Part shown: in pieces, positions 1-64,000 of the stretch
Layout of the letters: every line of letters starts with the position of its first letter
Numbering within the stretch: position 1 is the first letter of the stretch
Assembly (NCBI GenBank): GCA_037042915.1
Contig: CM073193.1
Coordinates: 8,246,001 to 8,310,000 of the forward strand
Reading direction: 5' to 3'
DNA length: 64,000 nucleotides
Origin: Auricularia sp. M13
Lineage: Eukaryota > Basidiomycota > Agaricomycetes > Auriculariales > Auriculariaceae
Notes under the pieces: generated by a model
Database searches by the model: none
Told to the model about the DNA's origin: nothing
The model's input: only the letters and a program-made list of their open reading frames with translations
Translations under genes and position numbers: made by a program

Positions 1-1559
1 TGTCCTACAAAGGGCAACACTCTGTCTCGTGGTGGTGAGTACGTCGTGCCTGTTAACGATTGTGATTTGACTCTGGCCTCAGGCCACACGTCTGCGCTGA
101 TCGTCGCATCCGGCCAGGCCAGCTTGTGCATCAGACGGTCTACGAAGAATGCGAGACAGATGGCCTCCCTGAATTCGTCAGAATCGAGCCAGACGAGTAC
201 ACCATATCGAAGAGGTTTGTCATCTCGTCTCCCGAAAAGATCTGGGAGGAAGGAGCACTTTGGAAAGATGAGGATTTATTGCAACTGGAGACGCTCTTGT
301 CCTCAGGTGCGCACGATGCCGCCTTTCTCAGATTTCCCTCAATGTTTCACGTAGAGATTGGCCGTCGATCGTTGGGTGAATTTGCTAGGCAGATAAATGC
401 ATCCATTGGCGCGATGGCCCACTTCTGTCACCAGCACAAGGAGACCGACGCTGCCCGCTCCAAAAGTCTCTTGGAAGAGCTATATTTATTCCAGAATAGG
501 ATCTCATACCGCTCATTCGACTCGCGCAATCGCATGATACCACTGAGCACTGTCCTCGGGACGGCGCCTGCGGACACATATGGTGAGACTGAAATGCAAT
601 TCAACAGCAGGGATGCTCATGAGCACGCAGTGACCCATCCCTTCTTCGTTCACGGTCATAACAATGCCGTCTCGTCTATTGCGTTTCTGTCCCCGCACCT
701 GGCTGTGTCCGGCTCATGGGATCACACCGTTCGCATCTGGAATGTTGAAACCGGAGAAGCCGTCGGTGATCCGTTGACGGGGTACACCGGCAGTGTCTGG
801 TGCGTTGCTGTCTCACCGGACGGTAGTCTCATCGCGTCCGGCTCCCACTACGGTACGATACACACGTGGAAGTTTGCAGCCGGAAATTTTGTTGGCGAAG
901 GGCTTGTCATGCAAGCGGAAGGCATGAACCGGGTTCTCTCAGTTGCGTTCTCGCCTGATGGACTGCGGATTGTTTCTGGTTCTGCGGGCGGAGCGCTCCG
1001 AGTGTGGGATGCTGCGACCGGAAAGCAGGTCGGAGAGGCAATGGAGGGGCATTCCAATCGGGTATGGTCGGTCGCATTCTCCCCGGACGGTGCACGCATC
1101 GCATCTGGCGCAAGCAAGCAGACCGTGCGATTATGGGATGCTGAGACACTTCGACCTCTCGGTGATCCTCTGATTGGACACACGGACTTTGTGTTTTCCG
1201 TCGCATTCTCCCCGGACGGCATCTCTATCGCTTCTGGCAGCCTCGACAAGACGGTCCGAATCTGGAACTCAGAGTCTCGCCAGCTGATGCACACACTGTC
1301 AGGGCATTCTCTCGGGGTCCGTTCCATTGCATTCTCACCGAGCGGACGGCACATCGCATCAGCTTCAGATGACAAGACAGTGCGAGTATGGGATGCGGTC
1401 ACGGGACAGGCAGTCGGCGTGCTCAAGGGGCACACGAGCGAAGTCTCTTCGGTTGCGTTTTCTCCAGACGGCACGCGGATAGCGTCGGGCTCGGGTGACT
1501 ATACTGTACGCATCTGGGATCGCATTCCTGTCACGGAGTTAGCTACGGACACGGCATGA
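1..1559 (+). CDS. Tle1-like lipase-WD40 protein, copy A (3' part only)
   Basis: The window opens inside this gene. Exons 1-34, 83-306 and 355-1559 read in frame to TGA at 1557-1559. The first exon encodes the end of the hydrolase domain (...LSYKGQHSVSW) and the second a linker (VHQTVYEECETDGLPEF). The third carries a helical linker and seven WD40 blades (654-1520), ending RIPVTELATDTA. Introns 35-82 and 307-354 are both 48 bp. The second is stop-free and a multiple of three, so unspliced RNA also reads through. The lipase half lies upstream, outside the window, so catalytic residues cannot be checked. Positions 1-355 are almost identical to copy C at 23475-23829, including both introns. By analogy with B-F it is a lipase-propeller fusion; its biological role is inferred. 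Confidence 0.9.
654..1520 (+). repeat. Seven WD40 blades, copy A
   Basis: Seven consecutive blades of about 41 codons, enough to close one beta-propeller. Each has the GH...SVAFSPDG...IASGS..TVRIWD pattern. Variable starts and ends by blade include GYTGSVWC, GHSNRVWS/GASKQ, GHTDFVFS/GSLDK, GHSLGVRS/ASDDK and GHTSEVSS/GSGDY. Confidence 0.95.
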
Positions 1560-1990
1560 ATTGTACAGTACGCGGAGCCTGTATCATACTTGGTTGTCGT
1601 GCTTCGTTGTGCTTCATCGGGCAGCGTTGTTGGTCTCATGCGCAAAGGGAACAAATTATTTCAGGACTTTATTCTCTGAGTCGAGGGATTTGCTTACACA
1701 TGACAGCAACGGTGAGACGCTCGCGACACGCAAACCTCGCCGTGCGCATTCCGCGGCACCACTTGGCCTGAGATTCCCACATCCTGAGCGTGCGAATGTG
1801 GCCGCGACACAGTATGCACTGAGGAGCGAGGAGGCCCATCATCTGAGCATCTGGACATTGTGTTGGCAACGTATTACGAAAATGCAAATTGAGTGAGTTG
1901 GAGCCATGTGATAGCGATGTATTCCGACCCGTAACTGTAGTGTAAAACAAGATAGCGAGCGACAACAGGAGCTGTTTTTGTCTCTAGATT
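1560..1990. other. 3' flank between copy A and the ERG2 relic
   Basis: Convergent intergenic stretch. It begins with the conserved block GAATTGTACAGTACGCGGAG overlapping the stop codon and ends in the 3' side of the minus-strand ERG2 relic. Units A, B, C and E share this version; D and F carry a different one. Short reading frames here are not conserved as proteins. It probably holds the 3' UTR and poly(A) region of copy A. Confidence 0.6.
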
Positions 1991-2843
1991 TTAGATCTTG
2001 CCGTTGAGCAGGTTGCGGATCATCTCGCGGCCGGTGATGCGGACGGTGTGGTAGGCGGAGATGAAGTCGAGCGTGGAGAAGAGGGCGTCGGCGAAGCCGA
2101 AGGGCAGCATAGGTGGGATCCATCCGCGCGCGTACTCGAGCGCCCAGCAGCCCTCGTGCATCTTGTACTGCTTGACGACGCCGCGCGGGAGGTGGTGCAC
2201 GCTGCCGGCTGGGTAGACCTATGACGCGTGAGCCGAAGGTGAGTGGAGACAGCAGCAGGGTGAGCGGAAATAAGAAAAGGCAATGCGGAGGACAGACCTC
2301 CTTATCGAGCGCGCCAGGCGTAAAGGCCTGCTCCTGGGCCTCGAGGATGTTATTCGTCGATGGCGGTATGGAGACGGGAATGACTCTCAGTGCTTAGCGG
2401 GGTACCGAAGATGAGATGATGTGGTCCTCGGTGATGCTGGCGGGGATGTTGTACATGGCGCCCATGTTGTTGATCACCTACTCGTCGAGCATCTGCACCA
2501 CGGTCTCCGGGTCCGCCAACGGCTGCACGTTGACCGTCTGCTCGCCGTGCGTCTTTGCGAGCGTGCTGACAATCGTATTGATGACGGCGCGCGTGTCGTT
2601 CGGGTGCGCCGCTAACGCCGAGCGCGACAGGGCGTGCAGCTCCTCGGGGTCGAAAACATACCAGCGGTGCTTGATGGTGTCGAGGTAGGCGCCGGTGCCG
2701 ACGAGGACAAAGACGATGCAGGCGAGCGCGAGCCACAGCCTGAGCGGGTCCGCGGCTTTCCTGCGCGCTGCTGGCGGCTTTTTAAGCGACACAGACGGCC
2801 GTATTGGGGGCGCGGCGCTGGAGCCCTTGCCCTTGCTCGACAT
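1991..2843 (-). pseudogene. ERG2: C-8 sterol isomerase (ERG2/sigma-1 receptor family) relic, unit A
   Basis: ERG2 converts fecosterol to episterol in ergosterol synthesis at the ER. The minus strand reads from ATG 2843: a hydrophobic segment (LRLWLALACIVFVLVG), then YVFDPEELHALSRSALAAH and [13 protein letters not shown]. Next come MGAMYNIPASITE, an intron ending near 2219, and the C-terminal exon with VKQYKMHEGCWALEYARG and TGREMIRNLLNGKI before the stop at 1991. This order and wording match the ERG2 family. It is broken: the Trp of the DEW(V)xNN motif is TAG at 2478-2480, and the stretch corresponding to [14 protein letters not shown] is frameshifted (near 2385-2425). It lies tail to tail with copy A and head to head with the Wbp11-like relic. 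A working ERG2 must exist elsewhere. Confidence 0.85.
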
Positions 2844-2944
2844 CGCTGTGCAGTATGCAAGTGGTACGACGCGAAAGTCGAAAGAGCAACGAAACGCGCC
2901 GGTGTTGGCCGACGCTATCTCCGCCCGACATCCTGACTCCGACT

Positions 2945-3445: not shown

Positions 3446-3460
3446 CTCCGACTGCGACCC

Positions 3461-6700: not shown

Positions 6701-6900
6701 CCGGGGGCGGCGCGAGAAGAGCGAGGAGATAGGCGAGCGCCGGAGTGGTAGAGGTACGAAGGCCGATAAACCTTGAGGCCTGTTAAGCTTTGAGTGACGC
6801 CGGACACGAGTAGGACAGCGCCGGCCAGATCCAGCTGGGTTATTTGCATATGCTTTTTCTAGCACGATATGAAGGGAAGGAGCTTGTAAGCACGAGAAAA
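3711..6900. other. Degenerate spacer, unit A, proximal half
   Basis: No intact gene supported. Positions 3776-3805 hold the motif GTCGGAGTTGGCACGTT found twice in every unit. The stretch 4640-5340 is shared with units E and F but absent from B-D. Minus-strand peptides such as FELVVGRRTLYAQSVLHNN (near 4600-4680) recur in other units but are interrupted. All long frames in this GC-rich region overlap others on both strands. Confidence 0.5.
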
Positions 6901-10538: not shown

Positions 10539-13500
10539 ATGTCGCGCCCTCCTTCGCCTCCATCGAGAAACGCTCTCCATGCTGACGCAGCGTCATCTGC
10601 CGCGCCTGCACCTACGTCAAGCGAGACTGCATCGCCGGCTCCGCCAATGGTTACTGAACCTGCAGCTCCGGCGGAAATATCATCCAGGCGTTCAAGAGAT
10701 CGGAGGAACACGACGACTAGCTCTAGTTCTCTCAGCGACAGCCATAGCGTGCGTCCCGGAACAGCCTCGCGCGCGGCTCCGTCTGCCCCGACTGCTGCTC
10801 CAGCGAAGCCTGTCGAAACTGCATCACCGACAGGACCCGGTCCTTCTCGCGAGCCGAAGACTGCAGCGTCCGCCCCAGATCCCCCGACCTGTCCAAGATG
10901 CAGGAGTGGCGGCAAAGGGAAGCGGAACCTCGTCGTCTGCATCGACGGCACGTCGAACCAGTTCAGCAAGAAGGTCCGCTCCCGCGTCCACGCTCAGAAT
11001 TAAGTCTGATATATGCTGATTGACTGACCCAGAATACCAACATCGTCGAACTCTACAGCCGGCTCGTCAAAGACGGCATTCAACTCACGTTCTACAACAG
11101 CGGGATTGGGACCTATGCGAAGCCGAGTTGGAAATCCTTGAGCTATCTCGAGCAGGTCATCGCGAATAAGTTGGATCTTGCCTTCGCACTGTATGTTGCT
11201 AGTCTCGTTGATTCCATTAAACTAACAGCCCAAAAAGCCGATTTGAGAAGATTATCATCAGCGCGTATGCCTGGCTCGTCGACAATTACCATGAAGGGGA
11301 CAGGATATTCCTATTCGGTCCGTTGTCTTGTGCGATCTGGTGCGTCGCTTACGGTTTGCCAGGTTTTTCCCGAGGTGCCTACCAGGTTCGCGCACTGGCA
11401 GCCATGATCAAGACTGTTGGATACTTTCATCTCTGTTTTTAACGTCGCTAATACTTCTCAGGTCGGTCTCCTTCACAAAGGAAACGATGATCAGATACCT
11501 TTGTGAGTTCATAAAGTCCAGCATGTTTGCCAAATCTCATTGTAACAGCGCCTACGAGCTCTACGCCGCCTCGGGACAGGCACCTTCTTCGACGCTCAGA
11601 CAGCGTATCACCCAATCATCCTGGGTGCGGCGGGTCGTTTTTCGCACAGAATCTGTGCGCGAGAAACTCCACGACAAGATCGCCAAGGTCCTCTCTAGGA
11701 GGAAACACAGCTGTAGGCCGGATAGCGATCATATCTCTTCATTGGAGAGTGACGGCGAGCGGGCGTCGTCCGTCGACTTTCCCGCATCTCGCTGGCGTGG
11801 CAAAATGCGCAAGCTCTTTGACAAAACTCGCGCCGGCAAGCCTCGTGAAATCCCACGCCCCAAACCTCAGGCGTTTGCCGAGAGTTGGGATTGGGATCCT
11901 TACAGTTTGCAAGAGCGGTTCAAGCGTACATTCTCCCGTGAAGTTGGGATTCATTTTCTCGGGGCGTGGTGAGTACAGGCAATGAGCCACTGTCGCGTAT
12001 TTCTCACACTTATACAGGGATACCGTCTCCGCAGTAGGTTTTGTGAGAGACAAAACTCTGCCGGGAACGACGGACGGCATGGGCTCCGTGTGCTACTTCC
12101 GTCACGCCCTCGCGCTCCACGAATACCGTGTGAAGTTTCTTCCCGAATATGCGAACGGGGGCAACGGTCCCCGCCCGTTTTATACACAGTCGGAGTCGGG
12201 CGGCCAACCTCATACCAAGGAGGTTTGGTTTACGGGATCGCATTCGGATATGTATGTTTACAGTTCCATAATGCCTAAGTACTCTCACTGACGCCGGTGG
12301 CTTGATAGTGGAGGCGGCAGCTCGGCGAATACAGCGCTGGATAAGTTCGGGCCGTCGCTTCGCTGGATGTCGCGCGAAGCGACGACCGCAGGTCTGAGAT
12401 TGGAGGATAATCGCCGGCAATGGGTTTCTGGCCGTGTCTCGCGATCAATGACTCCGGTCTGGCGATTCATTGAGTGCCTACCCATCAAGCGACTCTCCTA
12501 CAATGGACAACACTCCGTCTCGTGGTGGTAAGTACGTCGTGCATGTTGATAATTATCATCTGACTTTCGCGTCAGGCCACACGTCTGCGGTGATCGTCGC
12601 ATCCGGCCAGGCCAGCTTGTGCATCAGACGGTCTACGAAGAGTGTGAGACAGATGGCCTCCCGGAGTTCGTGCAAATGGAACCAGACGAGTACACCATAT
12701 CGAGAACGTTTGTCATCTCTTCTCCCGAAAAGATCTGGGAGGAAGGAACGCTGTGGAAAGATGAGGACCTATCTCAACTGGAGACACTCTTGTCGTCAGG
12801 TGCGCACGATGTTGCCTTCCTAACATTCTCTCAATGTTTCACGTAGAGATTGGCCGTCGATCGTTGGGTGAATTTGCTGGGGAGATAAATGAATTCATTG
12901 GCGCGATGGCCCACTTCTGTCAGCAGCACAAGGAGACCGACGCTGCCCGCTCCAAAAGACTCCTGGAAGAGCTATATTTATTTCAGAATAGGATCTCATA
13001 CCGCTCGTTCGACTCGCACAATCGCATGATGCCACTGAGCACCGTCCTCGAGACGGCGCCTGCGGACACATATGGTGAGACTGAAATGCGATTCAACAGC
13101 AGGGATGCTCATGAGCACGCAGTGACCCATCCCTTCTTCATTCACAGTCATAACAGTAGCGTCAACTCTGTCGCGTTTCTGTCCCCGCACCTGGCTGTGT
13201 CCGGCTCATGGGATCGCACCGTTCGCATCTGGAATGTTGAAACCGGAGAAGCCGTCGGTGATCCGTTGACGGGGCACACCGACAGTGTCACCTGCGTTGC
13301 TGTCTCACCGGACGGCAGTCTCGTCGCGTCTGGCTCCAGCGACGGCACCATACGCACGTGGAGGTTTGATGCCGGAAAGTTTGTTGGCGAAGGGCTTGCC
13401 ATGCAAGCGGACGGCATGCAGTATGTGCCCTCAGTTGCGTTCTCGCCTGATGGACTGCGGATTGTTTCTGGCTCTGGGGACCGAGCTCTCCGCATGTGGG

Positions 13501-14051
13501 ATGCTGCGACCGGAAAGCAGGTCGGAAACGCAATGGAGGGGCATTCTGGATCGGTATTGTTGGTTGCATTCTCCCCGGATGGTGCACACATCGCATCCGG
13601 CTCGAACGACGATACGGTGCGATTATGGGATGCTGAGACACTTCAACCTCTCGGTGACCCTCTGACCGGACACACGGCCGGCATGTTATCTGTTGCCTTC
13701 TCCCCGGACGGCGTCTCTATCGCTTCAGGCAGCGTCGACGGGACCGTCCGAATCTGGAACGCAGACTCTCGCCAGCTGATGCACACACTATCAGGGCATG
13801 CCCTCTGGGTCGTGTCCATTGCATTCTCACCGAGCGGACGGCACATTGCATCAGCTTCAGGTGACAAGACAGTTCGAATATGGGATGCCGTCACGGGAGA
13901 GGCAGTCGGTGTGCTCAAGGGGCATGCGAGCGAAGTCTCTTCGGTTGCGTTTTCTCCAGACGGCACGCGGATAGCGTCGGGCTCGCGTGACGGCGTTGTA
14001 CGTTTTTGGGATCGCATTCCTGTCACGGAGTTAGCCACGGACACGGCATGA
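10539..14051 (+). CDS. Tle1-like phospholipase-WD40 fusion, copy B (1022 aa)
   Basis: Ten exons: 10539-10973, 11033-11190, 11238-11317, 11363-11415, 11462-11502, 11549-11968, 12018-12251, 12309-12527, 12576-12799, 12847-14051. They join to 3069 bp with no stop. Residues 1-115 are Pro/Ser/Ala-rich. CPRC then SGGKGKRNLVVCIDGT follows (Asp136), then NTNIVELYSRL, the nucleophile elbow GFSRG (Ser227), QIPFAYELY, WDTVS (Asp397) and HSDIGGG (His471). This is the order of the DUF2235/Tle1 alpha/beta hydrolase domain, known from bacterial type VI phospholipase effectors. A helical linker (about 622-720) leads to seven WD40 blades (about 722-1011). ATG 10539 is chosen because it lies downstream of the TATA-like box and is common to all copies. 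Enzyme class is well supported; substrate and immune-type role are inferred. Intron 2 is identical to that of copy E, intron 9 to that of copy F. Confidence 0.92.
13146..14012 (+). repeat. Seven WD40 blades, copy B
   Basis: Seven blades forming one propeller. Variable ends include SHNSSVNS, GHTDSVTC/GSSDG, GHSGSVLL/GSNDD, GHTAGMLS/GSVDG, GHALWVVS/ASGDK and GHASEVSS/GSRDG. The framework SVAFSPDG...IASGS is unchanged. Confidence 0.95.
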
Positions 14052-14483: not shown

Positions 14484-15265
14484 TTAGATCTTGCCGTTGA
14501 GCAGGTTGCGGATCATCTCGCGGCCGGTGATGCGGACGGTGTGGTAGGCGGAGATGAAGTCGAGCGTGGAGAAGAGGGCGTCGGCGAAGCCTAAGGGCAG
14601 CATAGGTGGGATCCAGCCGCGCGCGTACTCGAGTGCCCAGCAGCCCTCGTGCATCTTGTACTGCTTGACGACGCCGCGCGGCAGGTGGTGCACGCTGCCG
14701 GCTGGGTACACCTATGTCGCGCGAACCGGAGGAATGTGAGGCGATAAGAAAAGACAAAGCGGAGGACGGACCTCCTTGTCGAGGGCACCTGGTGCAAAGG
14801 CCCACGGCCCCACTCCTCGCCCTCGAGCATGTTGGAGTAGTCGTCGGACGTATGGCGACCAGTATGGCCCTCAGTGCGGAGCAGGGTACCGAAGATGATG
14901 AGGCCCTCGGTGATGCTGGCGGGGATGTGGTACATGGCGCCCATCGCGCCGCCCGCGTTATTGATCACCTACTGGTCGAGCATCTGCACCGCGGTCTCCG
15001 CGTCCGCCAACGGCCACACTTTGACCGTTTGCTCGCCGTATATTCGCGCGGGCGTCGTATTAATGACTGCGCGCGTGTCGTTTGGGTGCGCAGCTAGCGC
15101 CGAGCGCGCTAGGGCGTGCAGCTCCTCGGGGTCGAAGATTTCCGAGCGTTGCCGGATGGCGTCTGGAGCGGTACTGCCAACCACGAAGGTGGCGAACATG
15201 AGCGTGAGCGCGAGCCACAGCCTGAGCGGGCCCGCGGCCGACGTTCTGCGCTGACGGCGACCCAT
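14484..15265 (-). pseudogene. ERG2: ERG2-family relic, unit B
   Basis: The C-terminal exon (stop at 14484) is open and reads VYPAGSVHHLPRG, VKQYKMHEGCWALEYARG and TGREMIRNLLNGKI. The central part reads [19 protein letters not shown] and [15 protein letters not shown]; the 5' part reads FDPEELHALARSALAAH. The conserved Trp is TAG at 14969-14971, as in A, C and E. Compared with units A and E, the start of the gene and most of the shared promoter are deleted, so it runs straight into the Wbp11-like relic. It cannot encode a working isomerase. Confidence 0.85.
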
Positions 15266-21541: not shown

Positions 21542-24500
21542 ATGTCGCGCCCTCCTTCGCCTCCATCGAGAAACGCTCTCCAGACTGACGCAGCGTCATC
21601 CGCTCCTGCACCTACGTCAAGCGAGACTGCGTCGCCGGCTCCTCCAATGAGGGATGAACCTGCAGGTCCGGCGGGAATAACACCCAGACGTTCAAGAGAT
21701 CGTAGAGACACGACGACTAGCTCTAGTTCCCTCCGCGACACAGACGATGTGCGCGCCGGAACAGCCCCGCCCGCGGCTCTATCTACCCAGACTGCTGCTC
21801 CAGCGCCGCCTGTCGATACTGCATCACCTCGCGAGCCGAAGACCGCCGCGGCCGCCCCAGATCCCCCGACGTGTCCGAAGTGCAAGAGCGGTGGCAAAGG
21901 GAAGCGGAATCTCGTTGTCTGCATCGACGGCACGTCGAATCAGTTCAGCAAGAAGGTCCGCTCCGATGCTCAGAATTACGTCTGATGTATACTGATTTAC
22001 TTATCCAGAATACCAATATCGTCGAACTCTACAGCCGGCTCGTCAAGGATGGCATTCAACTCACGTTCTACAACAGCGGGATTGGGACCTATGCGAAGCC
22101 GAGCTGGAAGTCGATGAGCTACCGCAAGCAGGTCATCGCCAACAAGTTGGACCTTGCTTTCGCACTGTGCGTTTTCGATCGAACTCACCGCTTGGTATGA
22201 ACTAATACCTTGCAAGCCGATTCGAGAAGATCATCATCAGTGCTTATGCCTGGCTCGTCGATAATTACCAGGAAGGAGACAGGATCTTCCTATTTGGTGC
22301 GCAACGCGGGAATCCTTGACGCACCGCTTACGCTCCGAGGCAGGGTTTTCCCGCGGCGCGTACCAAGTTCGCGCGCTGGCAGCGATGATCGAGACTGTCA
22401 GTCCATTCATATCTCTGTCTTCGACGTTTCTCATACGTACCAGGTCGGTCTCCTCCACAAGGGAAACAATGATCAGATTCCATTGTGAGTTTGCTGACGC
22501 AGGCATTGCCAAATCTGATCCCACCAGCGCATACGAGCTCTACGCTGCTTCGGGAAAGGACGAAGCACCGTCTTCGACGCTCATAGAGCGTATTACCCAA
22601 TCCTCTTGGGTGCGACGTGTTGTGTCTCAGACCAAGTCCATGCGTCGGAAACTTCACGACGAGCTCGCCAGCGTTCTCCCTCGGAGCAAAGACAGAGAAG
22701 CAACAGTCATTGAGGGCGAGGCTGCGCCGTCCGTTCCCTTTCCTGCCTCGCGGTGGCGTGGGAAAATGCGCAAGGTCTTTGGAAAAATGTCCGCAGACAG
22801 GCCTCGTGAAATCCCGCGCCCGAAACCTCGCGCGGCGAAACCTCGCGCGGCAGAGGCGAGGCTGAGCTCGGACTGGGATTATTGGACTTTACAGCAGCGG
22901 TTCAAGAATACATTCTCCCGCGAAGTCGGTGTCCATTTCGTTGGCGCATGGTGGGTCCTGGTATGCTGATGGCGCTGTTCATTTCTCATACCTAAGCAGG
23001 GATACGGTTTCCTCGGTTGGGTTTATCAGAGATAAGACTCTGCCAGGAACGACGGACGGCATGCAGTCCGTGTGCCACTTCCGCCATGCCCTCGCACTTC
23101 ACGAGTACCGTGTCAAGTTTCTGCCTGAATACGCGAATGGGGGCGATGGTCCCGACGAGGATGCTACTGTTCCTCAGGATGGAAGACCGCCGCATACCAA
23201 GGAAGTCTGGTTTACGGGGTCCCACTCGGATATGTACGGAGATTTTTACACTGTTCCTATGACAGGTTCTGACGTCTGTGGCATGCTAGTGGGGGTGGAA
23301 GCTCCGCAAACAGAAGGCTTGACCAGTTCGGGCCATCACTGCGTTGGATGTCGCGGGAAGCCACCATTGCCGGGCTGAAGTTCGAGGATAAGCACCGCTA
23401 CTGGGCTAATGGTCGTGTCTCGCAGTCAATGACTTCGATTTGGAAAGTCATTGAATGCTTGCCCATCAAGCGACTGTCCTACAAAGGGCAACACTCTGTC
23501 TCGTGGTGGTGAGTACGTCGTGCCTGTTAACGATTGTGATTTGACTCTGGCCTCAGGCCACACGTCTGCGCTGATCGTCGCATCCGGCCAGGCCAGCTTG
23601 TGCATCAGACGGTCTACGAAGAATGCGAGACAGATGGCCTCCCTGAATTCGTCAGAATCGAGCCAGACGAGTACACCATATCGAAGAGGTTTGTCATCTC
23701 GTCTCCCGAAAAGATCTGGGAGGAAGGAGCACTTTGGAAAGATGAGGATTTATTGCAACTGGAGACGCTCTTGTCCTCAGGTGCGCACGATGCCGCCTTT
23801 CTCAGATTTCCCTCAATGTTTCACGTAGAGATTGGCCGTCGATCGTTGGGTGAATTTGATATGGAGATAAATGCATCCATTGGCGCGATGGCCCACTTCT
23901 GTCACCAGCACAAGGAGACCGACGCTGCCCGCACCAAAAGACTCTTGGAAGAGCTATATTTATTCCAGAATAGGATCTCATACCGCTCATTCGACTCGCA
24001 CAATCGCATGATACCACTGAGCACTGTCCTCGGGACGGCGCCTGCGGACACATATGGTGAGACTGAAATGCGATTCAACAGCAGGGATGCTCATGAGCAC
24101 GCAGTGACCCATCCCTTCTTCGTTCACGGTCATAACAGTAGCGTCAACTCTGTTGCGTTTCTATCCCCGCGGCTGGTTGTGTCTGGCTTGTTGGATAACA
24201 CCGTTCGCATTTGGAATATCGAAACCGGAGAAGCCGTCGGTGATCCGTTGACGGGGCACACCGGCAGTGTCTACAGCGTTGCTGTCTCACCGGACGGCAG
24301 TCTCATCGCGTCTGGCTCCAGAGACGGCACCATACGCACGTGGAGGTTTGATGCCGGAAAGTTTGTTGGCGAAGGGCTTGTCATGCAAGCGGACGGCATG
24401 GACTGGGTTCTCTCAGTTGCGTTCTCGCCCGATGGACTGCGGATTGTTTCTGGCTCTGATGACAGAGCTCTCCGCATGTGGGACGCTGCGACCGGGCAGC

Positions 24501-25033
24501 AGGTCGGAAACGCAATGGAGGGGCATTCTGATTGGGTATGGTCGGTCGCATTCTCCCCGGACGGTGCACGCATCGCATCCGGCTCGGACGACGATACGGT
24601 GCGATTATGGGATGCTGAGACACTTCAACCTCTCGGTGACCCTCTGACCGGACACACGGCCGGCATTTTATCTGTTGCCTTCTCCCCGGACGGCGTCTCA
24701 ATCGCTTCTGGCAGCGTCGACAGGACCGTCCGAATCTGGAACGCAGACTCTCGCCAGCTGATGCACACACTATCAGGGCATGCCCTCTTCGTCGTGTCCA
24801 TTGCATTCTCACCGAGCGGACGGCACATCGCATCTGCTTCGCGGAACGGAACAGTGCAAATATGGGATGCCGTCACGGGAGAGGCAGTCGGCGTGCTCAA
24901 GGGGCACACCGACTGGGTCTATTCGGTTGCGTTTTCTCCAGATGGCACGCGGATAGCGTCGGGCTCGCGTGACGGCATTGTACGCTTTTGGGATCGCATT
25001 CCTGTCACGGAGTTAGCCACGGACAGGGCATGA
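21542..25033 (+). CDS. Tle1-like phospholipase-WD40 fusion, copy C (1016 aa)
   Basis: Exons 21542-21955, 22009-22166, 22217-22296, 22344-22396, 22444-22484, 22528-22950, 23000-23233, 23290-23508, 23557-23780, 23829-25033 join to 3051 bp without a stop. The Pro/Ser-rich N-terminus is 7 residues shorter than in B. Key sites: CPKC then VVCIDGT (Asp129), GFSRG (Ser220), WDTVSSVG (Asp391), HSDIGGG (His465). The domain order matches the DUF2235/Tle1 hydrolase. Seven WD40 blades span about residues 716-1005. Intron 9 (48 bp, identical to copy A) is stop-free and a multiple of three, so retention would add 16 residues (a GAHDAAFLRFP-type insert) without changing frame. Intron 7 is identical to that of copy F. 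Predicted soluble: no signal peptide or membrane segment seen. Confidence 0.92.
24128..24994 (+). repeat. Seven WD40 blades, copy C
   Basis: Seven blades. Variable ends include GHNSSVNS/GLLDN, GHTGSVYS/GSRDG, GHSDWVWS/GSDDD, GHTAGILS/GSVDR, GHALFVVS/ASRNG and GHTDWVYS/GSRDG. Confidence 0.95.
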
Positions 25034-42965: not shown

Positions 42966-45900
42966 ATGTCGCGCCCTCCTTCGCCTCCATCGAGAAACGC
43001 TCTCCAGGCTGACGCAGCGCCGTCCGCGCCTGCACCTACGACCACTGAGACTGCGCTGCCCATGGTTACTGAACCTGCAGGTCCGGTGGGAATAAAACCG
43101 AGACGTTCAAGAGATCGGAGGGACACGACGAGTAGCTCTAGTTCCCTCCGCGACACGGACGATGTGCGCGCCGGAACAGCCCCGCGCGCGGCTCCGTCTG
43201 TCACTGCTGCTCCAGCTCCGCCTGTCGATAGTGTACCACCAACTGGACCCGGTCCCTCTCGCGAGCCGAAGACTGCAGCGTCAGCACCAGATCCCCCAAT
43301 CTGTCCGAAGTGCGGGAGTGGCGGCAAAGGGAAGCGGAATCTCGTCGTCTGCATCGACGGCACGTCGAATCAATTCAGCAAGAAGGTCCGCTCCGATGTT
43401 CAGAATTACGTCTGATGTATACTGATTTACTTATCCAGAATACCAACATCGTCGAACTCTACAGCCGGCTCGTCAAGGATGGCATTCAACTTACGTTCTA
43501 CAACAGCGGGATTGGGACCTATGCAAAGCCGAGCTGGAAGTCGTTGAGCTATCTCGAGCAGGTCATCGCGAATAAGTTGGATCTTGCCTTCGCACTGTAT
43601 GTTGCTAGTCTCGTTGATTCCATTAAACTAACAGCCCAAAAAGCCGATTTGAGAAGATCATCATCAGCGCATATGCCTGGCTCGTCGACAATTACCAGGA
43701 AGGGGACAGGATATTCCTATTCGGTCTGTTGTCTTGTGCGGGTTTGGGCTTCGCTTACGTTCAGCAGGTTTTTCCCGCGGGGCGTACCAAGTTCGCGCGC
43801 TGGCGGCCATGATTGATATAGTTCGTTTGTTCATACTGCTATCCTCGAAGTCACTCACATGTCTCAGGTCGGTCTTCTTCATAAGGGGAATAACGATCAA
43901 ATCCCATTGTGAGTTTTAAGACACAGCATTTCGCCCAATCTCATCGTTTCAGCGCATATGAGCTCTACGCTGATTCAGGACCGCGAGAGGAGATGCCGTC
44001 ATCGTCATCGCCGATTACTCAATCGAGGTTACTGCGGCGCGTCTTCTCTTACGCCGAGGACGTGCGCCAAAAACTCCATGACGCACTGTCCAAAGTGCTC
44101 CCTTCCAGACCTGCCCCTTCAGAAGTGCGAGCGGACGAGCAGCCTCCTTCGACGCTCCTAAATCGCATCACCCAGTCGCGGTTGGTGCAGAGTCTCTCGT
44201 CTCACTCCAAGTACTTGCGTCAAAAGCTCTATGACGCGCTGGCCAAGGTACTTCCTCGCGAAAATCGCAACTCTGCAACGGAGAACCAAGGCGCTACGTC
44301 TCCATCCAAACCGCTTCCTCCCTCGACTTGGAGTGGGCGGATGCGCAAGATCTTTGGCATAAGGCACAGAGATTCGCCCCATGCAATCCCGCGGCCGAAG
44401 CCTCATGCAGCCGATGAACGTCCGCATACGGAATTTCACGGTTTTCTGCAATGGCGATTTAAGAGGACGTTTTCTCGCGATGTTAAGGTGCATTATGTCG
44501 GGGCTTGGTGCGTCTTGACACGCTGCTGTGCCCTTCTATCTCTCACACTCGTGCAGGGACACGGTCTCTTCGGTGGGTTTTGTCCGAGACAAAACTCTAC
44601 CGGGGACGACGGAAGGCATGCAATCCGTGTGCTACTTCCGTCATGCCCTTGCACTGCACGAATATCGCGTCAAGTTTCTTCCTGAATATGCAAACGGAGG
44701 CAATGGTCCCGACGAGCAGGCGACTCTGCCACAGGACGGCAGACCGCCGCACACGAAAGAAGTTTGGTTTACGGGTTCCCACTCGGACATGTACGGAGAT
44801 TTTCAAATTATTACCGTGACAGGTACTGACGTCGTGATAGCGGGGGCGGCAGCTCGGAAAATACATCGCTTGACAAGTTCGGGCCATCACTTCGCTGGAT
44901 GTCGCGTGAAGCCACAATCGCAGGTCTGAAATTCGAGGATGGCTACCGACAATGGGTTTCTGGTCGAGTAACACAGTCAATGACTCCAATCTGGCGAACC
45001 ATCGAATACCTGCCCATCAAGCGGCTTTCCTACCAAGGGCCACACTCCGTTTCATGGTGGCAAGTACCCGAAATTTTGATCCTCTGTAATTTAACTGTGA
45101 ATTTCAGGCCGCACATGTGCGCTGATCGTCGCATTCAGGAGGGCCAGCTTGTTCACCAGACGGTCTACGAAGAATGCGAGATAGATGGCCTCCCTGAGTT
45201 CGTAGCAATGGAACCAGACGAGTACACCATATCGAAAACATTCCTCATATCGAATCCCGAAAAGATTTGGGAGGAAGGAAAACTGTTGAAGGATGAGGAA
45301 TTATCGCAATTGGCGATGGTCCTGTCATCAGGTGTGCACGCCACTGCTTGGTCTGATCTCTCTCAACATTTGTACCAGAGGCTGGGCGCGAATCATTGGG
45401 CGACCTGGCTGGGAGGATAAACGTATCCATCGGAGTGATGGCTCGCTTCTGTCAGCAGCACAAGGAGATCGACGCCATCCTCTCTGAAAGACTCATCGAA
45501 GAGCTTTCTTCATTCCAGGATCGGATCTCATACCGCTCATTCAACTTGGAAGATTGCATGGTGCCGCTGAGCACGGTCCTCGGGACCGCACCTGCGGACC
45601 CATACGGTGAGACTGAAGGGCGATTTAACAGCAAGGATGCTCACGCGCACGCAGTGACCTATCCCTTCTTCGTTGGCGGTCATAATGGTGGCGTCTCTTC
45701 TGATGCGTTTCTATCCCCGCAGCTGGTTGTGTCTGGCTCATGGGATTGCACCATTCGTAACTGGAATGTTGAAACCGGAGAAGCGGTCAGTGATCCGTTG
45801 ACGGGGCACACTGACAGAATCAACTGTGTTGCTGTCTCACCGGACGGCAGTCTCGTCGCGTCTGGCTCTGACGACAGTAGCATACGCACGTGGAAGTTTG

Positions 45901-46583
45901 CAGCCGGCAAGTTTGTTGGCGAAGGGCTTGTCATGCAAGCGGACGGCATGCAGTATGTGCCCTCAGTTGCGTTCTCGCCTGATGGACTGCGGATTGTTTC
46001 TGGCTCTGGGGACCGAGCTCTCCGCATGTGGGACGCTGCGACCGGGCGGCAGGTCGGAAACGCGATGGAGGGGCATTCTGATTGGGTATGGTCGGTCGCA
46101 TTCTCCCCGGACGGTGCACGCATCGCATCCGGCTCATCCGACCAGACTGTGCGATTATGGGATGCTGAGACACTTCGACCTCTCGGTGGTCCTCTCATCG
46201 GACATACGGCCGGCATGTTATCTGTTGCCTTCTCCCCGGACGGCGTCTCTATCGCTTCTGGCAGCGTCGATGAGACGGTCCGAATCTGGAACGCAGACTC
46301 TCGCCAGCTGATGTACACACTGTCAGGGCATTCCGACTCGGCCTGGTCCATTTCATTCTCACCGAGCGGACGGCACATCGTATCATCTTCAGCTGACAAG
46401 ACAGTGCGAATATGGGATGCCGTCACGGGAGAGGCAGTCGGCGTGCTCAAGGGGCACACCAACTGGGTCAATTCGGTCGCGTTTTCTCCAGACGGCACGC
46501 GGATAGCGTCGGGCTCAGAAGACAGAACTGTACGCATTTGGGATCGCATCCCAGTCACGGAGTTAGCCACGGACACGGCATGA
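42966..46583 (+). CDS. Tle1-like phospholipase-WD40 fusion, copy E (1062 aa)
   Basis: Exons 42966-43385, 43439-43596, 43644-43723, 43768-43820, 43868-43908, 43953-44507, 44557-44790, 44841-45059, 45108-45331, 45379-46583 give 3189 bp without a stop. Sites: CPKC then VVCIDGT (Asp131), GFSRG (Ser222), WDTVSSVG (Asp437), HSDIGGG (His511). Seven WD40 blades span about residues 762-1052. Exon 6 is 555 bp against 399-423 bp in the other complete copies, because a basic helical segment of the insert between the serine and aspartate motifs is present twice (ITQSRLLRRVFSYAEDVRQK and ITQSRLVQSLSSHSKYLRQK). Intron 8 (45060) has a GC donor (GCAAGT) as in D. Intron 2 is identical to copy B and intron 1 differs from copy C by one base. 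Confidence 0.91.
45678..46544 (+). repeat. Seven WD40 blades, copy E
   Basis: Seven blades. Variable ends include GHNGGVSS/GSWDC, GHTDRINC/GSDDS, GHSDWVWS/GSSDQ, GHTAGMLS/GSVDE, GHSDSAWS/SSADK and GHTNWVNS/GSEDR. Confidence 0.95.
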
Positions 46584-47013: not shown

Positions 47014-47916
47014 TTAGATCTTGCCGTTGAGCAGGTTGCGGATCATCTCGCGGCCGGTGATGCGGACGGTGTGGTAGGCGGAGATGAAGTCGAGCGTGGA
47101 GAAGAGGGCGTCGGCGAAGCCGAAGGGCAGCATGGGCGGGATCCAGCCGCGCGCGTACTCGAGCGCCCAGCAGCCCTCGTGCATCTTGTACTGCTTGACG
47201 ACGCCGCGCGGGAGGTGGTGCACGCTGCCGGCTGGGTAGACCTATGACGCGTGAGCCGAAGGTGAGTGGAGACAGCAGCAGGGTGAGCGGAAATAAGAAA
47301 AGGCAATGCGGAGGACAGACCTCCTTATCGAGCGCGCCAGGCGTAAAGGCCTGCTCCTGGGCCTCGAGGATGTTATTCATCGACGGCGGTATGGAGACGG
47401 CAATGACTCTCAGTGCTTAGCGGGGTACCGAAGATGAGATGATGTGGTCCTCGGTGATGCTGGCGGGGATGTTGTACATGGCGCCCATGTTGTTGATCAC
47501 CTACTCGTCGAGCATCTGCACCACGGTCTCCGGGTCCGCCAACGGCTTAGTCTCCTTCGCAGACTTTAACGTTCGAAGATAATCGTTCCAACGGCTGCAC
47601 GTTGTCCGTCTGCTCGCCGTGTATTCGCGTGAGCGTGCTGACAATTGTATCAACAACGGCGCGCGTGTTGTTTGGGTGCGCAGCGAGCGCCGAGCGTACC
47701 AGGGCGTGCAGCGCCTCGGGGTCGAAGACTTATGAGCGGTGCTGGATGGCGTCTGGCCGGTCACCGGTACTGCCAACCAAACAGATGGCGAAGACGAACG
47801 CGAGCCGCAGCTGAGCGGGTCCGCGGCCTTCCTGCGCGCGGCGGGCGGCTTTTTGAGCGAGATAGAGGGCCGGATGCGCGGCGCGCGGTGCTGGTGCCCC
47901 TGCCCTCGCTCGACAT
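47014..47916 (-). pseudogene. ERG2: ERG2-family relic, unit E
   Basis: Full-length layout like unit A: start ATG at 47916, IRPSISLKKPPAARRKAADP, then frameshifts. TAA replaces the Tyr of the YVFDPE motif (near 47730), and the conserved Trp is TAG (47501-47503). The C-terminal exon VKQYKMHEGCWALEYARG...LLNGKI is open (stop 47014). A 49-bp insertion at 47548-47596 is flanked by the 8-bp repeat CAACGGCT. The downstream half is nearly identical to unit A, including the intron. Confidence 0.85.
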
Positions 47917-54606: not shown

Positions 54607-54660
54607 GTGCAGCGCTTCAAAGCCGCGTGTTTTGGCACATGTTTGCAGCGTTTCTCTCCC

Positions 54661-57600
54661 ATGTCGCGTCCTCCTTCGCCCCCGTCGACAAACGTCCTCC
54701 AGAGTGACGCAGCGCCGTCCGCGCCTGCACCTACGACGACCGAGACTGCGATGTCCGCTCCGCCCGTGACTGTGACCGGGCCCACTGGTCCAGCGGGAAA
54801 AGCACCCAGGCGTTCAGGCGATCGGAGGAACACGACGTCTAGCTCTGGTTCTCAGAGCAACACCAATAGCGGGCGTCCCGCACCTGCCCCGCCCGCGGCC
54901 CCGTCTGTCCCGACTGCTGCTCCAGTGTCGCCTGTCGATACTGGAGCACCGAGAGCACCCGGTGCTTCTGGCGAGCCGAAGACTGCAGCATCCGCCCCAG
55001 ATCCCCCAATCTGTCCGAGGTGCAGGAGTGGGGGCAAAGGGAAGCGGAATCTTGTCGTCTGCATCGACGGCACGTCGAACCAGTTCGGCAAGAAGGTCCG
55101 CTCCCGGGTCCACGCGCAGAATCAAGGTCTGATGTATACTGATTTACATCTCCAGAATACCAACATCGTCGAACTCTACAGCCGGCTCGTCAAAGACGGT
55201 ACTCAACTCACATTCTACAACAGCGGGATTGGGACATACGCGAAGCCGAGTTGGAAGTCGATGAGCTACCGCAAGCAGGTGATCGCGAACAAGTTGGACC
55301 TTGCTTTCGCACTGTGTGTTATCGATCCAACTCACCGCTTGATATGAACTAATGCCTCACAAGCCGATTCGAGAAGATCATTATCAGTGCATACGCTTGG
55401 CTTGTCGATAATTACCAGGAAGGCGACAGGATCTTTCTGTTCGGTCTGTTGCTTCGTGGCACTGTTTTGGTGTATCATTGACGTTAGCAGGGTTTTCACG
55501 CGGCGCGTACCAAGTTCGCGCGCTGGCGGCTATGATTGATACCGTTCGTCCAATGACGTCTCTGTCTTCGACGTCGCTCATACATACCAGGTCGGCCTCC
55601 TCCACAAGGGAAACAACGACCAGATTCCATTGTGAGTTTATCGATACGGGCTTTGCCAAATCTGATCCCTCCAGCGCATACGAACTCTACGCTGCTTCGG
55701 GAAAGGCAGAGGCACCTTCTTCGACGCTCATTCAGCGCATTACCCAATCCTCTTGGGTGCGACGGGTTGTTTCTCAGACAAAATCCATGCATCGGAAATT
55801 TCACGACGAGCTCGCCAACGTCCTCCCCCGGAGAAAAGACAGAGAAACGGATATTGAGGGCGAGGCTGCGCCGTCCGTTCCCTTTCCTGCCTCGCGGTGG
55901 CGTGGGAAAATGCGCAAGGTCTTTGGAAAAATGTCCGCAGACAGGCCTCGTGAAATCCCGCGCCCGAAACCTCGCGCGGCCGAGGAGAGCTCGGACTGGG
56001 ATTATTGGACTTTACAAGAGAGGTTCAAGAATACATTCTCCCGCGAAGTCGGTGTCCATTTTGTTGGCGCGTGGTGGGTCCTGGTATGCTGATGCCGCTG
56101 TTCATTTCTCACACCTAGGCAGGGATACGGTTTCCTCGGTTGGGTTCATCAGAGACAAGACTCTGCCAGGAACGACGGATGGCATGCAGTCTGTGTGCTA
56201 CTTCCGCCATGCACTAGCACTTCACGAGTACCGTGTCAAGTTTCTGCCTGAATACGCGAATGGGGGCGATGGTCCCCACGAGTATGCTACCGTGCCTCAG
56301 GATGGAAGACCGCCGCATACCAAGGAAGTCTGGTTCACGGGCTCCCACTCGGATATGTACGGAGATTTTTACACTGTTCCTATGACAGGTTCTGACGTCT
56401 GTGGCATGCTAGTGGGGGTGGAAGCTCCGCAAACAGAAGGCTTGACCAGTTCGGGCCATCACTGCGTTGGATGTCGCGCGAAGCGATGATCGCGGGCTTG
56501 AGGTTTGAGGATAAGCAACGCGACTGGGTTGCTGGTCGTGTCTCGCAGTCAATGACTTCGATCTGGAAAGTCATTGAATGCTTGCCCATCAAGCGACTGT
56601 CCTACAAAGGGCAACACTCTGTCTCGTGGTGGTGAGTACGTTGTGCCTGTTAACGATTGTGATTTGATTCTGGCGTCAGGCCACACGTCTGCGCTGATCG
56701 TCGCATCCGGCCAGGCCAGCTTGTGCATCAGACCGTCTACGAAGAGTGTGAGACAGATGGCCTCCCGGAGTTCGTGCAAATGAAAACAGACGAGTACACC
56801 ATATCGAAAAGGCTCGTCATCTCGTCTCCTGAAAAGATCTGGGAGAGAGGAATACTTTGGGAAGATGAGGATTTATCACAACTGGAGACCCTCTTGTCGT
56901 CAGGTGCGCACGATGTTGCCTTCCTAACATTCTCTCAATGTTTCACGTAGAGATTGGCCGTCGATCGTTGGGTGAATTTGCTGGGGAGATAAATGAATCC
57001 ATTGGCGCGATGGCCCACTTCTGTCAGCAACACAAGGAGACCGACGCTGCCCGCTCCAAAAGACTCTTGGAAGAGCTATATTTATTCCAGAATAGGATCT
57101 CATACCGCTCATTCGACTCGCACAATCGCATGATACCACTGAGCACCGTCCTCGGGACGGCGCCTGCGGACACATATGGTGAGACTGAAATGCGATTCAA
57201 CAGCAGGGATGCTCATGAGCACGCAGTGACCTATCCCTTCTTCGTTGGCGGTCATAATGATGAGGTCTCTTCTCTTGCGTTTCTGTCCCCGCAGCTGGTT
57301 GTGTCCGGCTCATGGGATCGCACCCTTCGCATCTGGAATATCGAAACCGGAGAAGCTGTCGGTGATGCGTTGACGGGGCACACCGGCAGTGTCTACAGCG
57401 TTGCTGTCTCACCGGACGGCAGTCTCGTCGCGTATGGCTCCACAGACGGCACCATACGCACGTGGAGGATTGATGCCGGAAATTTTGTTGGCGAAGGGCT
57501 TGTCATGCAAGCGGACGGCATGGACCGAGTTTTCTCAGTTGCGTTCTCGCCGGATGGACTGCGGATTGCTTCTGGCTCTGCGGACGGAGCGCTCCGCGTG

Positions 57601-58137
57601 TGGGACGCTGCTACCGGGCAGCAGGTCGGAAACGCAATGAAGGGGCATTCTGACTGGGTACGGTCGGTTGCATTCTCCCGGGACAGTGCACGCATCGCAT
57701 CCGGCTCGGACGACATGACCGTGCGATTATGGGATGCTGAGACACTTCAACCGCTCGGTGATCCTCTAACGGGACACACGGACTATGTGTGTTCCGTTGC
57801 ATTCTCCCCGGACGGCATCTCTATCGCTTCTGGCAGCGACGACAGGACCGTCCGAATCTGGAACGCAGACTCTCGCCAGCTGATGCACACACTATCAGGG
57901 CATGCCCACTTCGTCGAGTCCATTGCATTCTCACCGAGCGGACGGCACATCGCATCTGCTTCGTCGGACAGAACAGTGCGAATATGGGATGCTATCACGG
58001 GAGAGGCAGTCGGCGTGCTCAAGGGGCACACGAGCGCAGTCTATTCGGTTGCGTTTTCTCCAGACGGCACGCGGATAGCGTCGGGCTCGCATGACAGAAC
58101 TGTACGCATCTGGGATCGCATTCCAGTCACGCAGTGA
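54661..58137 (+). CDS. Tle1-like phospholipase-WD40 fusion, copy F (1009 aa)
   Basis: Exons 54661-55095, 55156-55313, 55364-55443, 55491-55543, 55591-55631, 55675-56073, 56123-56356, 56413-56631, 56680-56903, 56951-58137 give 3030 bp without a stop. Sites: CPRC then VVCIDGT (Asp136), GFSRG (Ser227), WDTVSSVG (Asp390), HSDIGGG (His464). Seven WD40 blades span about residues 715-1005. Intron 1 (55096-55155) is 60 bp, stop-free and a multiple of three, so retention would insert 20 residues right after the CIDGT strand. The 5' and middle parts resemble copy C (intron 7 identical). Intron 9 equals copy B. The 3' end, with the early TGA after IPVTQ and the flank beyond, equals copy D. This mosaic points to conversion between copies. 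Confidence 0.91.
57250..58116 (+). repeat. Seven WD40 blades, copy F
   Basis: Seven blades. Variable ends include GHNDEVSS/GSWDR, GHTGSVYS/GSTDG, GHSDWVRS/GSDDM, GHTDYVCS/GSDDR, GHAHFVES/ASSDR and GHTSAVYS/GSHDR. Blade 4 has FSRDSA where the other copies have FSPDGA. Confidence 0.95.
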
Positions 58138-58489
58138 GCCACGGACGCGGCACGAAATTGTACAGCACGCGGAGCATGTCTCATTATTGGTTGTCGAGCC
58201 TCGTTGTGCTGCAGCAGGCAGCTTTATCGATGTCATTCCTAAATCCAAGAAATCCAGAACTTGGTTCTGCGAGTGAGGTGCGCCGTGGACGTTGAACCGT
58301 CAGCAACCGTGGACCTCGGACTTGCAAGCTCGCGGCTTGGTGTCCAGAAATGGAATTGGCCATCGCAGTTGAGCTGGAGCCATGTGTTAGTGATGTATTC
58401 CGACCCATGTATTCCGACCCGTAAATGTAGCGTAAAACAAGACAGAGAGCAACAACCGTGACAGGAGCCCTTGTTTCTCTAGATTTTAG
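58138..58489. other. 3' flank between copy F and its ERG2 relic (D/F type)
   Basis: Close match to unit D 35662-35940. Conserved AATTGTACAGCACGCGGAG follows the stop. A short repeat of TGTATTCCGACCC is present near 58394-58420. No gene seen. Confidence 0.6.
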
Positions 58490-59090
58490 TCTTGCCGTTG
58501 AGCAAGGTGCGTATCATCTCGCGGCCGTGATACGGACGGTGTGGTAGGCGGAGACGAAGTCGAGCGTGGAGAAGAGGGCGTCGGCGAATCCGAAGGGCAG
58601 CATGGGCGGGATCCAGCCGCGCGCGTACTCGGGTGTCTAACAGCCATTGTGCATCTTTTACAGCTTGACGACGCCGCGCGGGAGGTGATAGACGCTGCGG
58701 GCTGGGTAGACCTGCGAAGTGTCAGCGCAGATCGCAATGGCAAAGCGGTGGACGGACCTCATTGTCGAGCGCGCAGGTCGCAACGGTCCACTGTTCGCCT
58801 TGGAAAATGTTGAGTAGTCTTCAGCGGTATAGCTGCCGGTATGGCTCTCGATGTTGAACTGGCTGTTGAGATGATGAGATAATCGGTGATGTTGGTATGG
58901 AAGAGGTACAGTACATGGCGCATCGCGCCGCCAGCATTATTGAATACTCACTCGTCGGGCGTATGGACCGCGGTAGCCGGCTCGTAAAGCGGGCGCACGT
59001 TGATTTTCTGCTCGCCGTGGGTCTTTGCGACATGCTGACGATGGTAACGAAGACGGCGCGCCGCTCCTCGGAGTAGCATATTTACCAGCG
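58490..59090 (-). pseudogene. ERG2: ERG2-family relic, unit F (most decayed)
   Basis: Fragments only: [32 protein letters not shown] and DE[13 protein letters not shown]. The conserved Trp codon is TGA (58948-58950), a different nonsense change from the TAG of A, B, C and E. Many small deletions. The Wbp11-like relic that follows in other units is essentially gone. Confidence 0.7.
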
Positions 59091-62000: not shown

Positions 62001-62630
62001 GTGGCGCACTGACGCGTCACCCTGGCCAGCGACTCTCCACGGCCGACGCTTCCGCCCCGTCGACGATTGCACCGGACTCCGCCACGCTCGCCTCTGCATC
62101 GCTCGGCGTCGCACTGGGACTGTACAGGTCACATTAAGCGAGAGGTTGCGGCTTGGCCCGGGAAACGCAGCCCCCGCACGAGGGCACGATCCGCCGTCCG
62201 CCGCCGTTCCAGATGGCGCCCGATGGAAGCGTGGTCGGCGACAGTGGTTGAACAGAAGAACTCTGGCTCTGCATTGCGTGCGAATGGCTCTCGTTCCCGC
62301 GCAGCCAGGCTCGGGCTTCCACGACGAGGTCAGGTCACTGCCGAATCCCGCCCGAGGCACGCGCTATCGCTTGAAGGAAAAGTCGGGAATGGGTGTGGAT
62401 TGGTTACGGGCTCGATGCGCCCGTCGCGATCAATCACTGCGCGGGGCCGGGGGCGACGCAAGAAGAGCGAGGAAGCGTAGGAGGGCCGGAGCAGCAGTAG
62501 GCGGCCGATGAACCGCGAGCGAAGCCGGAGACACTGCAAGAGCGATGGGCAGTTCCATCCGGGTCATTTCCAAACACGTTCCGAGCACAATCTGCGCGGA
62601 AGAAGCTTGTAAGCAGAAGGAGTGTGTGTC
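59091..62630. other. Degenerate spacer, unit F, proximal half
   Basis: The motif GTCGGAGTTGG(C/-)CACG is near 59320. 59200-60200 is diverged. 60220-60880 is shared with A and E, and 60755-62130 is nearly identical to E 49760-51140. From about 62300 it matches unit D. A minus peptide (FVYAVWLVLRDGMSARSWDS, near 59540-59600) has weaker partners in other units. No intact gene. Confidence 0.5.
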
Positions 62631-64000
62631 ATAGGATGGAAGAACAATACTGTGTCAACCAGCGCAGCTACTTTGCGCATCAACACGACAAGTTCTTCGT
62701 CAAGCATACGAGCCTCCTTCTCGACATCCTCTAGCGAAACCGCAAAGAGCGCCTGTTTTGGGCGTCGTCGCGCTATCGAGACATTCCAAGTCCTCGGTAA
62801 TCGTGCAAATTGTTCACGGATAGGCAGTGCCTGCTGCTTGACGAAGCGCGCCACAAATGTGTGCTATATCCCTCCAGAATCAATGACCGGTTCGTACTGG
62901 GACGATGCTGTGACCAGCCTTGAGCGGTTCGGGCGCGCGCGGCGGATGAAGAATTTGTCGGCGCTGTGAACGAAGGCGTTGCCGTTGTGCTTGAAGTTGG
63001 CGAGGACAATGCCGTACACGTGGTGTATACAGTCAGCGCGGCGGCGTCTGACATGGGCACCTTCGCGGACGACGACACAGGCGAGGTGGAGCTGGCGGAC
63101 GGCGGCCGGGTCAACGTCGCGCGTTCTGGAGATGAAAAAACGTCGATACACAGTCACAGCGTCATGTCGCGCGGGCGCAGCAGTCCAACGCCGAGTCGTT
63201 GCATCGATTCTTGAGACTTGACGATGGGCTCGGCGACAGAGACAGCAGGAGCGCCTTCGCGGGAGTCTTTATGGCTGCTGTTGTGAGATCGTTGGCAACA
63301 GCAGCGTCAGCCTGGCGGAGCGCCTCAGTGATATGTCGCGCCCATTGTCGGTGCGTCAACGAGAGGAAAAGTGAAGCATCCAGGTTGGAGGTCAAGTGCC
63401 GAGCGTCGGAGTTGGCACGTTGCTCGCATCCTATTCAGACCATGCCCTGCCGACCCCAGATTGCGCACTGGGCGAGCTGTCGAGGTCGACATTGGCCGCC
63501 AAGGCTACGGCGCGTCGAGCGCGACTGCATTATTGCATTTTTTTTTTTGTTTTTTGTTTTTTTTTTGTTTTTAGAAACCTGACGGTTGTGGCCCGTGTTC
63601 CATCAAGAGCGACTTGAACGTCGGCACCGTCGCTCTGCTCGCCTTACCAGCCTGGTTGCCAGACGAAAGCAGTCATTCCCGGCGGTCTGCTGCCAACGCG
63701 GACGGTGCCTGTATGCCGTTCAATTGCGCCGCCAGCTAAGTGCGAGACGGTGTCGGATTCGACGACAAGATCACCGCTGTGCGGCCTTCGTCAGCCCAGC
63801 TCTAGGCCTGCATAACCCGTGACGCCTTGCGCGATGCGGAGCTTCGGTACGTATCTCTGGCCACTCCAGAAGCCGCGAATATGAATGTGTACCTGCACGT
63901 TCTTTGGCGACTCGCCGTCCTTCCCGCGCCGCCGTTGCGTATGCCAGCCTGTCGCCATCGTGTTCGCTGTTCAGGCTGGCCCGCAGCGGCGCTCATCAAG
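62631..64000. other. Degenerate spacer, unit F, distal half (runs off the window)
   Basis: Nearly identical to unit D 39475-40860, with the repeated plus frame VAVVLEVGEDNAV, the motif GTCGGAGTTGGCACGTT near 63404 and the interrupted T-run at 63538-63574. The periodicity predicts a seventh lipase-WD40 gene starting about 1.5-2.5 kb beyond the window end. Confidence 0.5.

Follow-up and report, generated by a model that had tools for sequence, protein, structure and literature searches.

We propose, with a probability of roughly 0.6, that the genes repeated along the window, a stretch of 64,000 nucleotides (C1:8246001-8310000) within a 52.1-Mb genome of 14 contigs, encode NOD-less HET-like recognition propellers joined directly to a lipase-type effector, and that tandem duplication and gene conversion diversify them. 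The features behind this proposal are read from the DNA: the domain architecture, the open frames, the constraint on the enzyme, the diversified surface positions and the mosaic copies. The contact surface varies among the copies in a way that recalls fungal self/non-self receptors, and this suggests one-piece recognition-and-attack proteins. The gene family is neither an NLR family nor a T6SS effector family.

The window (G+C 54-66%) contains six direct-repeat units on the plus strand, with start-to-start spacings of 12492, 10982, 10646, 10904 and 11572 (about 11 kb). These spacings and the spliced alignments bear out an earlier note on this DNA, which had described five complete and one partial ten-exon genes on one strand. 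The same note had counted at least six genes; this is right for the window, and as a size for the array it is an undercount, the 28 propellers making the array about five times larger. These were obtained by comparing a 259-residue WD40 probe with the genome, places being counted as array copies when they had at least 70% identity and at least 173 of the 259 probe residues covered. Among the matches listed there were 28 such places, all within about 0.6 Mb of one contig (C1:8201039-8797842). Three of the 28 propellers, near the end of the second stretch (C1:8510000-8800000), are on the minus strand. Beyond the 28, the array harbours two shorter WD40 pieces, one of 91 residues at 73% identity and one at 66%. 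Outside the array, the best probe match by E-value among the matches listed had 49% identity over 244 residues, and shorter pieces among the matches listed reached up to 61% over 82 residues. The PF09994 profile gave 90 exon-level matches in the genome, the majority in the array stretch. Seventeen copies were read, ten in stretch A (8.198-8.323 Mb) and seven in stretch B (8.509-8.576 Mb); the remaining 11 of the 28 were covered by the WD40 probe alone. The copies of the second stretch (C1:8510000-8800000) are more diverged and come without a listed ERG2 passenger. Between array genes 8208550 and 8244070 there are about 23 kb (C1:8213700-8237000) in which blastn with gene 2 or with other unit DNA gave no match.

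Gene 2 was spliced by hand, and its nine introns are all GT-AG and 45-59 nt long. Introns this short, the presence of an ERG2-like gene and the G+C content are in keeping with a filamentous fungus, probably a basidiomycete. The other genes were modelled by spliced alignment of gene 2 to each copy. The frame lengths of 1004-1062 aa given previously hold for genes 1 to 6, all of which are open (Table 1; gene 1, which starts 1930 bases upstream of the window, has 1016 aa and is open after adding the flank). Gene 4 is frameshifted unless GC-AG is accepted for introns 4 and 8. An eleventh exon written by the aligner in gene 5 was merged, since the 123 nt concerned are duplicated in frame. Nine of the ten copies in stretch A are open, and the tenth (8198318) has one frameshift and one stop; the model of copy 8319100, also in stretch A, is without the first exon. 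All seven copies of stretch B share an extra GT-AG intron before the propeller (47 nt in six, 46 nt in one). The change of frame ahead of the propeller in these copies was considered as a lesion and rejected, as it corresponds to this 46-47-nt intron in all seven. With the intron, five of the seven are lesion-free from the hydrolase onward, 8549675 is ambiguous at one intron, and 8509600 is broken by stops and one frameshift. Clear lesions were found in two of the 17 main-gene copies read (8198318 and 8509600).

Table 1. Features of the array units. Positions are those of the window, except for unit 7, which is given in coordinates of contig C1.
Feature	Position	Strand	Remarks
Gene 1, 3' part	1..1559	+	exon 8 end 1-34, exon 9 83-306, exon 10 355-1559; spliced alignment, open frame
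ERG2-like passenger, unit 1	1994..2672	-	two frameshifts
Gene 2	10539..14051	+	ten exons, 1022 aa; hand splicing, Pfam
Gene 2, exons 1-5	10539-10973, 11033-11190, 11238-11317, 11363-11415, 11462-11502		
Gene 2, exons 6-10	11549-11968, 12018-12251, 12309-12527, 12576-12799, 12847-14051		
Gene 2, PF09994 hydrolase domain	10923..12378	+	aa 129-497, converted to nt; GFSRG, DTVSAVG, GSHSDIGGG
Gene 2, seven-bladed WD40 propeller	13137..14012	+	aa 719-1010, converted to nt
ERG2-like passenger, unit 2	14487..15154	-	lesion-free where aligned; N-terminal part uncovered
Gene 3	21542..25033	+	ten exons, 1016 aa; spliced alignment
ERG2-like passenger, unit 3	25467..26112	-	lesion-free where aligned; N-terminal part uncovered
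Gene 4	32211..35661	+	ten exons, 1004 aa; GC-AG introns 4 (33058-33104) and 8 (34156-34203)
ERG2-like passenger, unit 4	36000..36650	-	one frameshift
Gene 5	42966..46583	+	ten exons, 1062 aa; GC-AG intron 8 (45060-45107)
In-frame 123-nt tandem duplication, exon 6 of gene 5 (hydrolase insert)	44125..44247	+	
ERG2-like passenger, unit 5	47017..47744	-	stop and two frameshifts
Gene 6	54661..58137	+	ten exons, 1009 aa; spliced alignment, ORF end
ERG2-like passenger, unit 6	58488..59034	-	several stops and frameshifts
ERG2-like passenger, unit 7	8316321-8317029	-	lesion-free where aligned

A Pfam search of gene 2 matched PF09994 (DUF2235/Tle1-like) at full length (profile positions 1-287 of 287; 1.1e-71; 242 bits against a curated cut-off of 27) and seven WD40 stretches (9.8e-73), which confirmed the fusion of a DUF2235/Tle1-like hydrolase with a seven-bladed WD40 propeller described earlier. 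The genome-wide PF09994 match at C1:8258019-8258378 ends at the same base as the hydrolase domain of gene 2. Pfam, run with gene 2 as the sole protein, reported neither NACHT nor NB-ARC in residues 1-720 at E<=10, in agreement with the claim that the genes are NACHT-less. There was no HET domain in these residues either, the families reported being PF09994 and, weakly, Rsbr_N (E 0.055). The NACHT profile gave 27 matches in the genome, none of them in C1:8.2-8.8 Mb. Ten of the 27 listed NACHT matches fall in C10:2898219-3377387, several of them near WD40-probe matches, and this region is likely an ordinary NACHT-WD40 cluster. PF09994 matches followed by WD40 matches on the same strand were also seen at C1:5731902-5734947, C2:1513793-1516817 and C3:3963719-3966991; these three dispersed loci are possible relatives with the same architecture.

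The motifs GFSRG, DTVS[AS]VG and GSHSDIGGG were all present in nine of nine copies. By analogy they would form the Ser-Asp-His triad, and the motifs are as complete as had been stated. In the 28 pairs formed by the eight intact A copies, dS was 0.635, dN 0.044 and dN/dS 0.07 for the hydrolase core. This is strong purifying selection, as expected from the earlier claim that the hydrolase frame is kept, and together with the motifs it argues for a strongly constrained enzyme that is in use. In the same copies dN/dS was 0.33 in the hydrolase variable insert, 0.25 in the part behind this insert, 0.46 in the linker, 0.52 in the tail and 0.63 in the whole propeller. A CPxC-x-SGG motif with a zinc-ribbon-like look stands directly before the hydrolase in nine of nine copies (aa 117-123 in gene 2 and the equivalent residues in the others); Pfam gave no family at this motif in gene 2 apart from the start of PF09994. 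A phmmer search gave no solved relative of the hydrolase, and two designed proteins matched weakly in the linker. A PADLOC search returned no family.

In the HET-type WD40 repeats of Podospora, four positions of the blade (7, 9, 25 and 27), which flank two conserved ones, are described as being under diversifying selection (PMC1805685, PMC2873952); in another numbering, positions 10, 11, 12, 14, 30, 32 and 39 are named (PMC12222747). By our own mapping, the four positions were placed next to the conserved V and D residues of the blades (V-to-D spacing 18, and 17 in blade 1), and the resulting 28 codons (four in each of seven blades) were fixed beforehand from the Podospora papers. At these face codons dN/dS was 1.83 in A9, 1.91 in the six genes of the window, which are part of A9, and 1.92 in B7, compared to 0.37, 0.43 and 0.39 respectively at the other propeller codons. 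The bootstrap P(dN<=dS) for the 28 codons was modest and uncorrected (0.022, 0.045 and 0.017 for A9, the window genes and B7). When 28 codons were drawn at random among the remaining WD codons, the observed ratio was reached in 0 of 500 draws, three times over, and random four-offset sets reached the observed mean pN in 0 of 20000. The 28-codon ratio between sub-arrays A and B was 0.87, at a dS (1.34) that is near saturation. Using all seven literature positions instead of four, the ratio went down to 1.15-1.33. pN was higher than pS at offsets -2, -1, +1, +17 and +18, and also at +10 and +24, where both values were small. The selection described for positions 7, 9, 25 and 27 was accordingly found at three of the four positions, with pN higher than pS, the exception being offset +19 (pN 0.238, pS 0.338). 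Entropy was 2.20 bits at the face positions versus 0.43 bits. The 119 blades held 111 distinct four-letter combinations, and the codes of the 17 propellers were all different (in A8198318, one blade-4 code varies with the placement of a one-residue gap), with seven blades in every one of the 17. The analogy with fungal recognition propellers drawn in the earlier note is backed by this pattern of diversified positions, which is that of HET-D/HET-E.

The dS of the propeller (0.180) and of the linker (0.163) in the eight intact A copies was far below that of the hydrolase. Identical runs were significant in a global test (p<0.01, 300 permutations) in 9 of 28 gene pairs, mostly in the tail, the hydrolase insert and the linker, and also in the C-terminal part of the hydrolase. 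Runs within the propeller were significant pairwise and not in the global test; diversified codons there would break runs. The nearest blade from another gene had the same index for all 119 blades, and the nearest blade overall was located in the same gene for none of them, a pattern that looks like exchange between copies keeping register. Blades of one gene shared on average 38% aa identity; among the 119 blades there was neither the strong within-gene similarity nor the blade shuffling of the HNWD/HET type.

An ERG2-like (PF04622) passenger is present on the minus strand in each of the ten units of stretch A, which contains 16 of the 20 ERG2-like matches in the genome (C1:8196828-8317029, minus-strand pieces). 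None of the genome matches listed was in stretch B, and a separate ERG2 is located at C11:819648-820552. Stops or frameshifts were found in seven of the ten stretch A passengers, units 2, 3 and 7 being clean where aligned; the passenger at 8212580 has a single lesion, a stop right where its alignment begins. The idea that the rest of each unit had decayed stood in part, the passenger being broken in four of the six window units and intact where aligned in two. The passenger thus decays and the main gene stays open, though not everywhere. A proline-rich reading frame (L030) downstream of the ERG2-like passenger presumably resembles WBP11-like splicing proteins.

The HET-D/HET-E/HET-R (HNWD) NLRs of Podospora anserina, as described, have a similarly conserved WD40 framework with diversified positions beside V and D (PMC1805685, PMC2873952, PMC12222747), and they also form a multi-gene family with exchange between copies. 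They differ in having HET and NACHT domains, neither of which was found in gene 2, in their variable blade number (constant at seven here, 17 of 17) and in their shuffled, length-variable blades, whereas here exchange keeps register and the nearest blade is the same-index blade of another gene. The tandem array is a feature of the genes studied here, unlike the HNWD genes as described. Fungal NLRs with a lipase-type N-terminus (PLP-1 patatin, SesB-like) likewise combine a lipase-type effector and a repeat sensor in one polypeptide (PMC12881547, PMC10197012), but the genes of the array are without a NOD and use another hydrolase family, PF09994. In the Q2L proteases that control fungal gasdermins an effector enzyme adjoins ANK, TPR or WD40 repeats, in architectures that are mostly not described as NLR; however, these are proteases acting on gasdermin, and a tandem array is not part of their description (PMC10197012). 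Bacterial Tle1 phospholipases of the T6SS share the PF09994 domain and the Ser-Asp-His type of triad, but as described they have a secretion context and membrane-anchoring domains (PMC13133936), in contrast to the WD40 fusion seen here in sequence. A T6SS effector was considered for the array and ruled out by the eukaryotic, intron-bearing gene and by the ERG2-like passenger in the units. Effector enzymes beside repeats (Q2L proteases) and HET-like propellers (NLRs) are known already, and what appears to be new is their PF09994 combination as a tandem library. By title and abstract, no description of PF09994 with a HET-like propeller as a NOD-less tandem library was found in the open-licence PMC literature, and none of the papers searched gave an activity for fungal PF09994 enzymes.

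The product would be one cytosolic polypeptide that starts with a disordered tail and continues through a Tle1-like alpha/beta hydrolase and a linker of helices to a seven-bladed WD40 propeller. The residues next to the V and D in the blades would shape the top face of the propeller; this face would read a variable partner, and binding of the partner would release or position the hydrolase. The hydrolase might then attack the lipids of the cell's own membranes, leading to local death or a sealing response. The binding partner, the release, the phospholipase activity, cell death and a non-self role are inferred by analogy with HET-D/HET-E, patatin NLRs and Tle1. New copies would be generated by tandem duplication of the ~11-kb unit, and exchange between copies would keep the propeller framework similar, with selection diversifying the reading face. 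We tentatively regard it as possible that the array is a basidiomycete-type non-self locus with about 28 NOD-less receptors lined up as a tandem library. Each receptor would combine an invariably seven-bladed propeller and a 28-residue code of its own with a Tle1-like lipase and would need no switch ATPase for recognition and membrane attack, and the diversity would come from unit duplication and in-register exchange.

The same receptor-effector could also be directed not at same-species partners, but at foreign molecules from bacteria, viruses or fungi, or at a host protein under guard. We consider this rather unlikely, even if it would predict the same selection pattern, is indistinguishable from a same-species partner in sequence, and has precedents as described in that HET-D/HET-E read the host protein HET-C and that an immune role was already proposed for such genes. 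An ordinary lipid-metabolism or scaffold family, in which the WD40 domain has a fixed partner and the differences between copies are relaxed drift, is improbable. The whole-propeller dN/dS is below 1 and the family has no known activity or phenotype, as such a family might; however, the variation is concentrated on the face, where entropy is about 2.2 bits versus 0.4 and dN/dS exceeds 1, with purifying selection adjacent.

It is very improbable that the product is an antagonistic toxin that is released against competitors and binds its target through the propeller. In the source concerned PF09994 is listed as a bacterial toxin domain that is present in fungi, but seven of nine copies show no hydrophobic leader (maximum 15-residue mean <=0.78), the maxima of the other two being 1.14 and 1.41, the latter in a copy whose first exon is outside the model, and no immunity gene was noticed. 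There is equally little to recommend a selfish or passive segmental amplification rich in pseudogenes: the broken ERG2 passengers in seven of ten units and the clear lesions in two of 17 main-gene copies would fit it, but not a hydrolase core with a dN/dS of 0.07 at its level of dS, nor the long open frames of most copies examined.

Somatic incompatibility in basidiomycetes is described as poorly understood, with models drawn from ascomycetes (PMC8229728). If the fungus is a basidiomycete, as its gene structure and composition suggest, the array of NOD-less propellers joined to a Tle1-like hydrolase provides a concrete candidate locus for this process. If the proposal is true, strains should differ in their propeller codes and removal of the array should alter rejection, and HET-like propellers would be able to function without a NOD.
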